This document shows, in pieces, positions 9,121-18,850 of a DNA stretch of 20,366 nt. The notes below the pieces were generated by a model. That model saw nothing but the letters and a program-made list of their open reading frames with translations. It had not been told where the DNA came from and made no database searches. This DNA comes from a virus: positions 1 to 20,366 of the IMG/VR virus record IMGVR_UViG_3300028829_000805; one strand, 5' to 3'. Position 1 is the stretch's first letter. Each line of letters begins with the position of its first letter. Made by a program: the position numbers and the translations under genes.

Positions 9121-9984
9121 TTAATATCCAAATGTTGCGTCTGCTACTTGCATACCTGTTGTCATAGTAGGCCCACCAAATTCAAAGTTAGTAAAACGCG
9201 GTCGTGACATAATACCGTACCTTAAAGCATCGTACAAGTGATCTTCTGAGGTTGTGTCAATATCCTCTGGGTTTCGTTTGTCGATGGGTAAGGCTGGAAG
9301 CTGTGCAATAAGATTGTGGCAAGTATTAAAGAAAACCATACGAGGCTCTTCTGTGTATTCGTCAACTTGCAATCTCCTGTGTACTTCGTTCTTACCAGCT
9401 ACACGAGAGCCTCTTGATCTGTCGGATGGACGCCAGCGACATCCTTTCATAATCATTTGTTCAGCCAATGACGGGCCAGTATCACCACGCTTGTGCCATA
9501 GAGAACTATCCAAAACACCATATCTAATTGAGCCATCTTCAGCCTCTACATCCAATACCATATCAGCTAGATCTGTAGCTAACACTTTTCCTACGTATAA
9601 TTCTCTATATACTACTAACTGTTCACTAGGGGATACTGCAAACCAAATAACCCCTGACTTACTTCCATACCCATAGTCACATGCTCTAAACTTAACCCAG
9701 TTATGAGGTATAGCAAAAGGTTCAACTACGTGTATGTGCCTGTTAAACTCTGTAAAGGCTGCGCCTTCTTTAATATCCCAGTCACCTTCTAGTAACTGTC
9801 TACGCTGTTGTTCAGGTAGTGACAGAAGCATTGCTTCGTAGTCACCAGTCTTTGCTAAGTAAGGATTGTCGGAAAGACGGGCAGGTATAAACCTACGCTT
9901 AAATAAAGGTTTGCCAGCTTTTGAGTGTCCAGCAGGATAGCGTAATACTTCAATGCCCCCTACCTCCTGGGTTTGTAGTAGCTC
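9121..9984 (-). CDS. Terminase large subunit, C-terminal nuclease fragment
   Basis: The frame is open from 9984 to the stop at 9121. The first ATG is at 9831 (MLLSLPEQ). The reading upstream of that ATG (RYPAGHSKAGKPLFKRRFIPARLSDNPYLA, quoted here by parts 9845-9940) is clearly terminase sequence, so the protein continues upstream into another frame. The RNase H-like nuclease is visible: an Asp in RACDYGYG, a second Asp in YGVLDSSLW and a third in DHLYDALRY, the metal ligands of headful nucleases that cut the DNA concatemer. The ATPase half is in the next frame (9950-10624). The join lacks about 25 residues that relatives usually have. See the findings for frameshift versus deletion. Confidence 0.75.
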   Translation of the reverse strand, partial: ELLQTQEVGGIEVLRYPAGHSKAGKPLFKRRFIPARLSDNPYLAKTGDYEAMLLSLPEQQRRQLLEGDWDIKEGAAFTEFNRHIHVVEPFAIPHNWVKFRACDYGYGSKSGVIWFAVSPSEQLVVYRELYVGKVLATDLADMVLDVEAEDGSIRYGVLDSSLWHKRGDTGPSLAEQMIMKGCRWRPSDRSRGSRVAGKNEVHRRLQVDEYTEEPRMVFFNTCHNLIAQLPALPIDKRNPEDIDTTSEDHLYDALRYGIMSRPRFTNFEFGGPTMTTGMQVADATFGY

Positions 9985-10624
9985 TCATGTATACTGGTAA
10001 ATCATTTGCAGTAGATCTTAAGCGACTTCGCATATAGTTCCACGCAAATGGAGTAGGCCATTGCGTCAATTCGTCAAAGCCTATCCAACTAAACGCGAGA
10101 CCTTGGTAGCGAAGTACGTCATCTTCTTTGTCTAGATAAGACATCCATAGTCTGGCACCAGAGGGTGCAGTCCATTGCATCTTACGTTCTGACCACTTAA
10201 TTCCAGGCCAGATCTTAGGGTACATTTCTTGTGACTTAAAGATAAGTTCCCTTAGTTCTTCTGTAGTATGCCTAAGAAGCAACCCTGAAAATGCTGGGTG
10301 CCCCATAAAGCGTAAAGGGTCAGCCAACATAGCATATGACTTACCACCGCCAGCACTACCGCCGTATAAAACCTCACGTTCACCTGCAGCTAAGAAATCT
10401 GTTTGTGGACCAGCATTAGGTTTAAAGATTACGTTATGATCTTCTTCAACCTGTTGAGTAAACTCTTCTATAATGTCAGGCTGCGGATTGGGTGCTTTCG
10501 CTTTGCGTTTTCGCTGTGGCTCCTGTGCGACTATTTTCGATTTCTTCCGCTTTGGCGATTGCCTTTTTCGCATAGTCTGCCCATCTGCGTAAGCTGCCAG
10601 CTTTGTTTTTTCTTCTTCGTTCAT
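9950..10624 (-). CDS. Terminase large subunit, N-terminal ATPase fragment
   Basis: The frame shows the packaging ATPase: Walker A YGGSAGGGKS (residues 87-96 counted from the ATG at 10624), arginine-rich LLLRHTTEELRELI, Walker B SWIGFDE (179-185) and coupling motif TTN (216-218). It then stops after NPGGRGH, where relatives continue with HxWVKxxFI. The true start is unclear. The ATG at 10624 and the next ATG at 10576 both lie inside the upstream frame (10476-10904), and the sequence before about residue 50 looks like an out-of-frame shadow. The ATPase drives DNA into the procapsid through the portal. A single terminase polypeptide would need this frame to join the nuclease frame. Confidence 0.75.
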   Translation of the reverse strand: MNEEEKTKLAAYADGQTMRKRQSPKRKKSKIVAQEPQRKRKAKAPNPQPDIIEEFTQQVEEDHNVIFKPNAGPQTDFLAAGEREVLYGGSAGGGKSYAMLADPLRFMGHPAFSGLLLRHTTEELRELIFKSQEMYPKIWPGIKWSERKMQWTAPSGARLWMSYLDKEDDVLRYQGLAFSWIGFDELTQWPTPFAWNYMRSRLRSTANDLPVYMRATTNPGGRGH

Positions 10625-15751: not shown

Positions 15752-15785
15752 GTGTAAACCACCTTATATGTATAGTGGTTAACAC
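15752..15785. promoter_or_regulatory. 11-bp inverted repeat in the divergent region
   Basis: GTGTAAACCAC and GTGGTTAACAC face each other across 12 AT-rich bases, with one mismatch in eleven pairs. The spacing of about 23 bases centre to centre is near two helical turns, as in operators bound by a dimer on one face. No gene overlaps it. It may control divergent transcription. Confidence 0.4.
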
Positions 15786-15880: not shown

Positions 15881-15886
15881 TATAAT
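15881..15886 (+). promoter_or_regulatory. Candidate early promoter -10 (TATAAT)
   Basis: A perfect TATAAT abuts the palindrome GCGCAATTGCGC. The 17-base spacing places a poor -35 (GTGCTT) at about 15858, so the promoter would depend on an activator or be weak. A start near 15893 would produce a 550-base leader before the first early gene, covering the hairpin cluster. Confidence 0.35.
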
Positions 15887-15891
15887 GCAAG

Positions 15892-16330
15892 GTCATGACG
15901 CATGGTGAGAGCAAACAGCATGACACATTCCACCATCACATCGTAGATGTGTTTAAAAACAACCACTTACTTGTCTACGACAACTGTTATGGAATCAGTT
16001 GCCTGTCTAAAGACAGAATGAATAGGGGGATTTATCACACTCTTAGTGTGTTGACGAGACGATGCTTATATTCTACCCCACCCCCTTTGGGGCAATGCAC
16101 ATGATCCTACAAGCCACGTGCTGCTCTGCCAATGGTTCAAGTTAAGTCCAACGTCGGACCTATAACATCTTTATGATGTTGCTAAAATGTCACAGTTAAG
16201 GTGGTGAAGCTGTGAGTTGAGGTCGCAAGTTTAGCGCATGAGTTTCAGAAAAATATTATCGAAGAGAATATTATTTCTTGCAACAGCGTGTGAAACGGCA
16301 GGCGCAGAGGATCACGAGGCAGTTTTCCAA
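15892..16330 (+). ncRNA. Candidate structured RNA or structured early leader
   Basis: Eight stem-loops occur in this gene-free stretch: CACATC/GATGTG (15937-15951), CAACTG/CAGTTG (15981-16001), CTGTC/GACAG with loop TAAA (16003-16016), CACACT/AGTGTG (16036-16050), CCCC/GGGG (16081-16092), the GTCCAACGTCGGAC element (16146-16159), AACATC/GATGTT (16164-16180), and GAAA-AATATT/AATATT-TTTC (16248-16277). It follows the TATAAT candidate. I could not match it to tmRNA, RNase P RNA or a tRNA. The strand and ends are inference. Confidence 0.4.
16142..16162 (+). repeat. Near-palindromic element, copy 1 (noncoding)
   Basis: Core GTCCAACGTCGGAC at 16146-16159, with TTAA to the left and CTA to the right. 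The core is the reverse complement of the core in copies 2, 3 and 5, although the flanks keep the same orientation. It lies in the gene-free leader, next to the AACATC/GATGTT hairpin. Confidence 0.8.
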
Positions 16331-16373
16331 CCTCCAAAACTTATACTATCTTCTTACATTTTTAATGATAGAA

Positions 16374-16402
16374 CTATATCTCACTTCTTGTGAGAGATAT
16401 AG
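16374..16402 (+). other. Hairpin before the first early gene
   Basis: CTATATCTC pairs with GAGATATAG. Two more pairs (AC and GT) form if GA bulges. The hairpin ends about 30 bases before the ribosome binding site AAAGGAAG. No T-run follows. It may block or stabilise the first early messenger. Confidence 0.45.
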
Positions 16403-16445
16403 ATTCTCTCATATAAAAATAGAAGATAGATAAAGGAAGCTCAAA

Positions 16446-17039
16446 ATGGCAAATTTCGAAATTCAAAATATCACAACCCTCGAAGATCAGGGCAAGGTTC
16501 TTTCAGAACAGTGGGCTAAAATCGAAGCTGCTGACAAGAAAAGATTCACTCTTTCAACCAAAGCTGAAGGCTTTGATACACAGCTTGGAAAGCTGATGGT
16601 CGAGCTAAAAGCTGAGGCAACTGGAGATCGTATCCCAAGCCAAAGGCTTCGTGATTGCCATCTTCATTTGATCGACAAACGTCGTCGGAGCGAAGCTCTA
16701 TGGTTTGTTGAGAATGAAGTAGAATGCAGAGCATTCATTGAAACCTCAAAGAAAGGTTTTACTTCACTGTCTGCTTTGCAGAGAGCAATGAAACAGAAAG
16801 ATGCTACCTCTAAAGAGGTTGCTGAGACAGTCAGCGAAGCTGTACCAGTCAGCGAAGCTGAAACATCCAGCGAAGCTCTTGTTAAGTCCGACGTTGGACC
16901 AGTCACAAAGCAGGTTGTCTTCGACAAGCTTATCAAGGTTTGCTTGGCAAATGACATTGATCCTCTGGATCTTGCAGAAATGCTGATGGAATATGACAGC
17001 GTATCAGCTTCAGAAGAAGCAGCAAAGGCGGCAGCATGA
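16446..17039 (+). CDS. First early protein, unknown function
   Basis: A 197-residue protein (MANFEIQNITTLEDQGKVLS...), charged and helical, with KRFTLSTKAEGFDTQLGKLM and KRRRSEALWFVENEVECRAF. A low-complexity linker (about residues 128-146) contains three SEA units. It is followed by KSDVGP (147-152), encoded by the palindromic element, and by a C-terminal helix block (VFDKLIKVCLANDIDPLDLA). The linker plus element may join two domains. AAAGGAAG precedes the ATG. The stop overlaps the next start as ATGA. As the first gene after the leader it may modify host functions, but no family is recognised. Confidence 0.68.
   Translation: MANFEIQNITTLEDQGKVLSEQWAKIEAADKKRFTLSTKAEGFDTQLGKLMVELKAEATGDRIPSQRLRDCHLHLIDKRRRSEALWFVENEVECRAFIETSKKGFTSLSALQRAMKQKDATSKEVAETVSEAVPVSEAETSSEALVKSDVGPVTKQVVFDKLIKVCLANDIDPLDLAEMLMEYDSVSASEEAAKAAA
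16881..16900 (+). repeat. Near-palindromic element, copy 2 (in gene)
   Basis: Core GTCCGACGTTGGAC at 16886-16899, with TTAA to the left. The right flank differs (CAGT). It lies inside the 16446 gene and encodes KSDVGP. Confidence 0.85.
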
Positions 17040-17257
17040 GATACAAGCAACACACATCCACCAAGGCAGAGGTGCGCTCTCAGCGTACCAATGCCCTTCG
17101 CGCACGTTTGGATGAGGCGAGACAGCTTAAGTCCGACGTTGGACCTAAACCTTTCACAAGTGTAGATGACCTAGTGCAAGCATCTAAACCTAAAGGTTCA
17201 CTCGTGCCAATGATGGGCAAAATGGTGATTGACAGCGGTTGGAAAGATCCAGCTTGA
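17036..17257 (+). CDS. Small basic early protein with element-encoded KSDVGP
   Basis: A 73-residue protein that begins MRYKQHTSTKAEVRSQRTNA, continues LRARLDEARQ and then carries LKSDVGPKP (K32 to P37), encoded by element copy 3. The C-terminal part is VDDLVQASKPKGSLVPMMGK. The start overlaps the upstream stop as ATGA, so translation is coupled. No family is recognised. Confidence 0.6.
   Translation: MRYKQHTSTKAEVRSQRTNALRARLDEARQLKSDVGPKPFTSVDDLVQASKPKGSLVPMMGKMVIDSGWKDPA
17126..17148 (+). repeat. Near-palindromic element, copy 3 (in gene)
   Basis: Core GTCCGACGTTGGAC at 17131-17144, with CTTAA to the left and CTAA to the right. It lies inside the 17036 gene in the same frame as copies 2 and 5. 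Confidence 0.85.
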
Positions 17258-17278
17258 CAAACTCTATGTATAGTATAA

Positions 17279-17316
17279 GTTATTTATACTTGATATTTAT
17301 TGAAAGTATAAATAAC
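17279..17316. promoter_or_regulatory. 13-bp perfect inverted repeat before the 43-residue gene
   Basis: GTTATTTATACTT and AAGTATAAATAAC pair perfectly around 12 AT-rich bases. A TTGACA (17254-17259) sits at the end of the upstream gene, but no good -10 follows at 16-18 bases. TTGAAA (17300) with TATACT (17324) is spaced by 18 but would start inside the ribosome binding site. The repeat could be an operator or an RNA processing hairpin. There is no T-run for termination. Confidence 0.5.
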
Positions 17317-17343
17317 GTATACATATACTAGAAAGGAAGTTAA

Positions 17344-17475
17344 ATGAATACGATTAAAGTTATCACAGATCAGTATGGTTTCTGGCATGTTTACCGTACT
17401 TGTAAAGTCACAGGTCAGCGCTCTATCTCATTCTTTAAGAATGTGGCTGAAGCTAAAGCTGCCCTACGTAAGTAA
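17344..17475 (+). CDS. 43-residue early protein, unknown
   Basis: ATG at 17344 with GAAAGGAAG upstream; stop TAA at 17473-17475. The protein starts MNTIKVITDQYGFWHVYRTC and ends FFKNVAEAKAALRK. The strand-rich start and the K/A helix resemble a small single-domain fold. An alternative frame starting at 17375 runs through this gene into the next one, but this ATG has the better ribosome binding site. The element copy 4 lies between this gene and the next. Confidence 0.6.
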   Translation: MNTIKVITDQYGFWHVYRTCKVTGQRSISFFKNVAEAKAALRK

Positions 17476-17479
17476 GAAA

Positions 17480-17502
17480 CTTAAGTCCAACGTTGGACCT
17501 AA
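17480..17502 (+). repeat. Near-palindromic element, copy 4 (intergenic)
   Basis: Core GTCCAACGTTGGAC at 17485-17498 is a perfect palindrome, with CTTAA to the left and CTAA to the right. It lies between the 43-residue gene and the next gene, 20 bases before its ATG. Confidence 0.88.
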
Positions 17503-18723: not shown

Positions 18724-18850
18724 GGTTAAGTCCGACGTTGGACCTAATCGAAGGCGGCAAGAGTGGAAGATCGACAGAAAGAAAGATCGTTCACGTAAAC
18801 TAACGCTACGTAACAGCGTAACTAACTATCGTACAAACAAAATATCTTAA
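18686..18850 (+). CDS. Small basic early protein with element-encoded KSDVGP
   Basis: Start ATG at 18686 is seven bases after GGAG (an earlier ATG at 18680 is too close to it). The 54-residue protein starts MRYEMQNFIKMTKV. It carries KSDVGPNRRRQ from residue 15, encoded by element copy 5, and then DRKKDRSRKLTLRNSVTNYR. It overlaps the upstream gene by 38 bases. It is very basic and may bind nucleic acid. No family is recognised. Confidence 0.5.
   Translation: MRYEMQNFIKMTKVKSDVGPNRRRQEWKIDRKKDRSRKLTLRNSVTNYRTNKIS
18726..18747 (+). repeat. Near-palindromic element, copy 5 (in gene)
   Basis: Core GTCCGACGTTGGAC at 18730-18743, with TTAA to the left and CTAA to the right. It lies inside the 18686 gene and encodes KSDVGPN. 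Confidence 0.85.

Follow-up and report, generated by a model that had tools for sequence, protein, structure and literature searches.

The marks that template switching leaves in hairpins are, according to Monttinen and Loytynoja 2022 (PMC8794818), perfect stems, compensated changes spanning several base pairs and inversions of the loop. In yeast, quasi-palindrome events that are linked to transcription and to RNA-DNA hybrids were found with a reporter assay in mutants, and that study (PMC3820800) describes perfect repeats of 5-8 bp, which arose at a site whose arms lie 3 bp apart. Hairpins in the early region are also known from two phages. N4 has three sequence-specific promoter hairpins there, which are read by a virion polymerase of 3500 residues (PMC4496689), and the early leader of HK022 carries putRNA, which consists of two adjacent stem-loops (PMC9378689); the put antiterminator acts through binding of the beta' zinc domain and antitermination. 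The hairpin zone that we describe here, at the start of the early genes of HMO-2011-type podoviruses, shows all three marks listed in PMC8794818, but whereas the hairpins described there lie in rRNA and other RNA genes, the zone is dense and situated in phage DNA, with a protein-coding part included. Its repeats also resemble those reported in PMC3820800, which are perfect, 5-8 bp long and arise where the arms lie 3 bp apart; the yeast data, however, come from a mutant reporter assay, whereas the zone is an evolutionary pattern in wild phages.

The window, that is the whole stretch of 20.4 kb that was analyzed, is a virus record in which the structural genes (coat, portal, terminase) run leftward and the early genes rightward from 16446, with a divergent non-coding stretch between the two. 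Its relatives are the HMO-2011-type podoviruses, and DNA matches were obtained to CRP-1 and CRP-345. This group of phages is abundant in the ocean; the host of HMO-2011 is SAR116, not Roseobacter. The terminase large subunit of the window appears split over two open frames (9121-9831 and 9950-10624), which may reflect a frameshift or a sequencing error. The first rightward gene, gene 1 (16446-17039, plus strand, 197 aa; this name, like P0-P7 and H below, was coined in this analysis), was matched in CRP-345, CRP-1 and HMO-2011, the latter being represented by two records of one genome. Its protein fell into no PHROG family, and Pfam gave nothing close to the cut-off; the AlphaFold model had a mean pLDDT of 75 with PDB matches of Z 3.8 at most, and against BFVD there was one match below 1e-3, S4S2E1, which carries no name in the table. 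Upstream of the hairpins lies a palindrome (15757-15784; AACCAC..GTGGTT with TTAACA) that is kept in CRP-1 and CRP-345 and partly in HMO-2011, and that we infer to be operator- or promoter-like. A TATAAT box, of which variants occur at the same place in 37 of 70 sequences, is found on the plus strand at 15881-15886; it had been put forward as a candidate and is indeed present, but the promoter scan gave no -35 partner.

Within the divergent stretch, the first-pass annotation had noticed dense short stems at 15892-16330 and had proposed an unknown structured RNA. The stems themselves were borne out: with a stem of at least 5 and a loop of 3-9, this patch contains 7 perfect hairpins against 2.67±1.55 in shuffles, 1.3% of which reach 7. 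On the plus strand the zone begins with the perfect hairpin P0 (15937-15951), followed by P1 (15981-16001), a conserved perfect hairpin that forms the near-invariant core CAACTG-TTATGGAAT-CAGTTG and whose 5' strand is overlapped by an alternative hairpin, TTGTC-TAC-GACAA (15971-15983). P2 (16003-16016) starts one nt after P1 and has a covarying stem with the loop in both orientations; the loop of P3 (16036-16050) is inverted in some sequences, and P4 (16076-16092) is variable in sequence, with inverted loops in relatives. The first copy of a dispersed near-palindrome (16142-16162) comes next, its hairpin part at 16146-16159 being an extra weak stem, and then the perfect hairpin P6 (16164-16180). 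The P7 domain (16228-16316, plus strand) is made up of AGTTT..GTTTC, an arm at 16247-16278 that is swapped and inverted among relatives, TGCAAC and the conserved GTGAAACGGCAGGCGCAGAGGATCACG, and the seventh perfect hairpin of the patch is found at 16252-16272. The strongest hairpin, H (16346-16429, plus strand), is long, immediately precedes the ribosome site of gene 1 and falls outside the patch that was singled out at first; 16330-16446 folds with a z of -5.4. The 439-nt patch as a whole folds no better than shuffles (z -0.53 on the plus and -0.97 on the minus strand), so that folding energy, named by the first-pass annotation as a check, fails globally, and it is the local number of hairpins and the comparative evidence that carry the observation. 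A control stretch of upstream non-coding sequence had 5 short hairpins against 3.5 in shuffles, yet an overall fold z of -3.8. The judgement that the patch is no tmRNA, RNase P RNA or tRNA agreed with searches of the window: ARAGORN gave 0 tRNA or tmRNA genes and Rfam release 15 gave 0 matches at or above the gathering threshold, with weak sub-threshold ones of E up to 5.

A pattern scan recovered the core CAACTGTTATGNAATCAGTTGCC in at least 119 viral stretches. Together with the hairpins that follow, the core is found in more than 100 such stretches and in the isolates CRP-1, CRP-345 and HMO-2011; none of the bacterial or archaeal genome contigs in the collection scanned contained the core pattern. 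Conservation was assessed on 63 loci, namely the window, CRP-1, CRP-345 and 60 contigs with a relative of gene 1. P1 was found in 56 of these; in the remaining 7 the sequence ahead of the gene match is no longer than 478 nt. A scan with the P7 flanks yielded 87 stretches. Among the 23 loci with P7 flanks L270-L292, 20 have an upstream P1-like core that carries no more than 3 substitutions, 2 are truncated too near and the remaining one is a chance hit within a gene. The order in HMO-2011 is the same as in the window: P1, one nt, P2, the element, P7 and H. At 148 of the 149 P1 sites with enough sequence a gene 1 relative follows 361-876 nt downstream on the same strand (the exception is L189), and judged by this linkage the leader and gene 1 are one cassette. 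Six loci (L021, L023, L028, L035, L037 and L039) have P1 but no recognisable P7 domain, and the stretch before gene 1 differs in them. One contig of 80 kb, IMGVR_UViG_3300046167_000032, contains two copies of leader and gene 1 (L023 and L046), which could represent a duplication or the joining of two phages. Some contigs end near P1; genome ends were considered there, but these ends are taken instead for probable assembly breaks in shared sequence.

The comparison made clear that the patch is the left, non-coding end of a hairpin zone of around 2 kb and not a stand-alone structured RNA. The zone spans from just before the first early gene to around 2 kb past it, coding sequence included, and fades over 3-5 kb. 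Counting perfect hairpins per sequence with a stem of at least 6 and a loop of 3-9, we found 4.84 in the leader against 0.73 in shuffles (n=74), 5.53 against 0.69 in the gene 1 region (n=66) and 3.90 against 0.84 from +1000 to +1420 (n=59), with 1.57 against 1.32 in the upstream non-coding sequence (n=70) and 0.63 against 0.60 in the left genes (n=67). The supposed confinement of the structure to the non-coding region thus did not hold, as hairpin density is equal through gene 1 and beyond. Over 85 non-redundant sequences, of which 14 to 77 reach a given bin, the enrichment ratio stood at 1.50 immediately upstream and at 10.3 over the leader, with 11.7 and 13.6 within gene 1 and 8.5 up to +1750; past that point it was 3.5, 5.3, 2.9 and 2.2, and 1.5-2 beyond 5 kb. 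The left border is sharp: hairpin coverage stays at 0-0.02 between -220 and -80 and begins to rise at -60, around 60 nt before the core (67 sequences). Where a CATNATGC-like box is present (37 sequences) the rise falls at -50, and in the 33 sequences that lack the box it falls closer to P1.

Among the isolates, 500-bp windows with p <0.001 were found only in CRP-1 and HMO-2011, and none in CRP-345, CRP-2, CRP-3, CRP-212, SIO1, T7, lambda or the 20.4 kb stretch itself. In 1-kb windows with loops of 3-9, the first kilobase of CRP-345 had 8 hairpins against 1, and from 16 to 19 kb our window had 9, 5 and 4 per kb against 2, 2 and 1. The zone is absent from the tested phages without the core (CRP-2, CRP-3, CRP-212, SIO1, T7 and lambda) and was found, among the tested isolates, only alongside the P1 leader and gene 1. 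Within gene 1, hairpins were compared with synonymous-codon shuffles, which keep the protein and the codon usage. Over 41 loci 225 were observed against 36 in the shuffles, with 34 loci reaching p 0.05; CRP-1 gp01 has 9 against 1.45 and HMO-2011 gp74 has 8 against 0.75. The gene 1 of the window, with hairpins at 16559-16575, 16581-16595, 16722-16736 and 16741-16759, showed no significant excess (3 against 1.7, p 0.26), and polymerase, helicase, integrase and reductase genes showed no excess over their synonymous shuffles. The hairpins of gene 1 occur at the same codons with different compensated stems; at one site 14 of 28 sequences carry a hairpin, of 10 different kinds.

Covariation was scored on ordinary MAFFT alignments with a home-made G-test that imitates R-scape and uses a tree-based null. 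Covarying stems, as expected of a functional structured RNA, were found in P2 (three pairs, E 2.4e-6 to 9.1e-4, 92 sequences), in the arm and base pairs of P7 (best E 1.1e-7, 74 sequences) and in H (one pair, E 2.3e-4, 54 sequences). P1 hardly varies and shows no covariation, and the few changes in its 5' strand break pairs. Not every hit represents a pair, since the non-pairing columns 50:54 (E 0.0014) and crossed combinations of two-state base pairs scored equally well. The first-pass annotation had proposed that compensatory changes would speak for an RNA; such changes are indeed there, but they do not prove RNA, since other signs point to a process at the DNA level.

These signs lie in the composition of the stems and in the loops. 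In 23 distinct P7 arms, 148 of the 155 scored pairs are Watson-Crick and 7 are other, none of them G·T or A·C. For a 6-bp stem with a loop of 3-5, perfect hairpins were enriched 10.1x in the leader (74 sequences) and 6.3x in gene 1 (29 sequences), against 0.63x and 0.83x for one G·T and 0.76x and 0.99x for one A·C. Within RNA-energy bins from -2 to -6 kcal/mol the enrichment was 4.9-12.6x for Watson-Crick and 0.8-1.2x for one-G·U hairpins, so that the tolerance of G·U that a functional structured RNA should show was not seen, save in the most stable bin (below -6 kcal/mol), in which one-G·U hairpins were enriched 2.8-3.3x. Between close relatives, single departures of the G·T kind numbered 20 and those of the A·C kind 16, with no clear strand preference. 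A wobble count for H (A·C 134, G·T 41) was kept out of the evidence, because the stem tracing had strayed into the purine-rich ribosome site, and terminal G·U in the element and in P2 of one subgroup was read as misregister. In P2, 7 of 9 stems occur with both loop orientations. Among pairs with the same stem and different loops, exact inversions made up 10 of 101 for triloops (1.6 expected for random loops), 3 of 40 for tetraloops (0.16 expected) and 8 of 18 for 2-nt loops (1.2 expected), and between close relatives 8 of 39 loop-only changes were exact inversions, one of them inside gene 1 (L038/L040). Enrichment peaked at a stem of 6-7 and a loop of 2-3 and was mostly nil for loops longer than 6, P1 excepted. 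The closing pair was pyrimidine-purine in 234 of 284 six-bp stems; triloops accounted for 76 of 156 distinct leader hairpins, and C:G closed 52 of these 76. Triloop stems were hardly longer than 7 bp and stem G+C dropped with length (0.47, 0.41, 0.31 and 0.19 for 5-8 bp; n=4 at 8 bp), which suggests selection on stability and not neutral copying alone. Considering the hairpins running through gene 1, the lack of G·U enrichment in most energy bins, the about equal G·T and A·C departures and the flipped loops, all signs of a DNA-level constraint or mutation process, the hairpins of the zone look like evolving as DNA rather than as RNA.

The proposed structured early leader RNA, a transcript running from 15.9 to 16.4 kb on the window, whose string of hairpins would act in cis (antitermination, protection and processing at H being proposed roles) or as a separate RNA, stands in part: a conserved leader does sit right in front of gene 1, ending in H ahead of the ribosome site, and this leader has covarying stems as well as two blocks of strong sequence conservation. 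With a single nt between them, P1 and P2 are adjacent stem-loops in an early leader like those of HK022 putRNA, a likeness of geometry only (PMC9378689). The leader is likely transcribed, and the conserved blocks may have an RNA role. Unlike in putRNA, however, the loops of the zone flip and the hairpins go on through coding DNA (PMC9378689); moreover, G·U is excluded at equal RNA energy, the most stable bin excepted, G·T and A·C departures are about equal and the global fold does not surpass shuffles. We consider a leader RNA unlikely as the explanation of the hairpins. The core by itself allows two further readings. An attachment site, in which P1 would supply inverted arms of 6 nt on either side of a conserved 9-nt spacer, would suit phages whose relatives encode an integrase, but it was rejected as very improbable: the core pattern matches no genome contig, the integrase gene is several kb away and CRP-3 integrates at tRNA-Met (PMC6918029). 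Still less credible is a reading of the core as coding for a short conserved protein (DNCYxISC). The window has an open frame of 69 aa there and HMO-2011 gp72 (53665-53928; 1466-1729 of L267) is annotated across the leader core, but over 75 sequences the frame is not conserved, with lengths of 0-101 aa, no start codon in HMO-2011 and a stop inside the core of L020. A protein-coding core was therefore rejected, in line with the earlier view that the patch holds no convincing gene, and gp72 is probably not a gene.

The explanation that we prefer, tentatively and with somewhat less than even confidence, is that the hairpins of this zone of around 2 kb, of which the patch is the non-coding upstream part, are DNA hairpins kept perfect by template switching at the early start. 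Hairpins would form in single-stranded DNA during transcription of a heavily used stretch or at a replication start, for instance with an early transcript acting as the primer of DNA synthesis by way of an origin and an R-loop; a polymerase would switch template within the quasi-palindromes and copy one arm onto the other, which would keep stems perfect and invert loops. P1 and the P7 flanks would serve as the cis element, and gene 1 as its partner, in starting the process, as an early leader or an origin. As expected of template switching, the stems are perfect Watson-Crick with both arms changing together, although one-sided changes are common as well (59 single mismatched pairs among 144 changed hairpins), loops are inverted while the stem is kept, and the zone is one-sided. 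On these grounds template switching is held the most likely maker of the hairpin pattern, an added job for the hairpins being possible, and the beginning of the zone near the expected start of the early transcript fits switching linked to transcription. Template switching does not account for the conservation of P1 and the P7 flanks, which mark a cis element linked to gene 1. Against template switching speak the stability tuning, the one-G·U enrichment in the most stable bin, the weak signal in the window's gene 1, and the fact that CRP-345 has the cassette but no 500-bp window at p <0.001. The tuning would be accounted for if the short hairpins had a function of their own in DNA form, arising by extrusion under the negative supercoiling that trails the early polymerase or by folding of single strands, and were selected as an extended origin, a torsional buffer or a binding array to which the gene 1 protein may attach; the part left to template switching would then be only to help keep them. 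The narrow geometry, the closing pair, the fall of G+C with stem length, the hairpin positions that stay put in gene 1 despite changes in sequence and the cassette with gene 1 are consistent with this, and the N4 promoter hairpins, which share the short stem, the 3-nt loop, the C:G closing pair and the early location, show that such DNA hairpins extrude (PMC4496689). N4, however, has three sequence-specific promoters, whereas the zone has dozens of hairpins of unrelated sequence and no giant polymerase was found: the largest annotated CDS of CRP-1 is only 1251 aa, which led us to reject an N4-type virion RNA polymerase (about 3500 aa), and a Pfam profile search of four large CRP-1 virion-region proteins gave no RNA polymerase domain. 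The hairpins further lack a common sequence and a known reader protein, the fold of the gene 1 protein is uninformative and the window's own gene 1 is weak. Selected DNA hairpins are thus possible, though not probable. That the start of the early unit, coding part included, would be an array of extrudable DNA hairpins with a dedicated function, so that DNA folding rules the codon choice of gene 1, is doubtful.

Besides the hairpins, the early region contains five copies of the near-palindrome TTAAGTCCRACGTYGGACCTAA, the one at 16142-16162 and four more at 16882-16903, 17127-17148, 17481-17502 and 18726-18747. CRP-1, CRP-345 and HMO-2011 have their own versions of the element, with 5, 6 and 5 exact copies of GTCC[AG]N4[TC]GGAC, respectively. 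Some copies lie right before ribosome sites and one falls within gene 1, where its position (S[ND]VG) is homologous. The element appears operator- or stoperator-like. A second inverted repeat (17273-17322; 19-nt arms, 95%) immediately precedes the ribosome site belonging to the gene at 17344, placed like H before gene 1.

Literature searches, in which the coverage of journals was incomplete, gave no report of the zone, and the accessible parts of PMC6918029 and PMC9038755, considered for promoter, hairpin, intergenic and non-coding content, mention neither the zone nor the element. A tenfold excess of hairpins that is restricted to Watson-Crick pairs, starts at one point, runs into a coding gene and goes with one cassette points to a DNA process, so far unrecognised, at the onset of infection. 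It further offers a case from nature where strong covariation, which usually counts as proof of a functional RNA, can arise from copying at the DNA level, and with isolates such as CRP-1 the question of DNA-level copying is directly testable.
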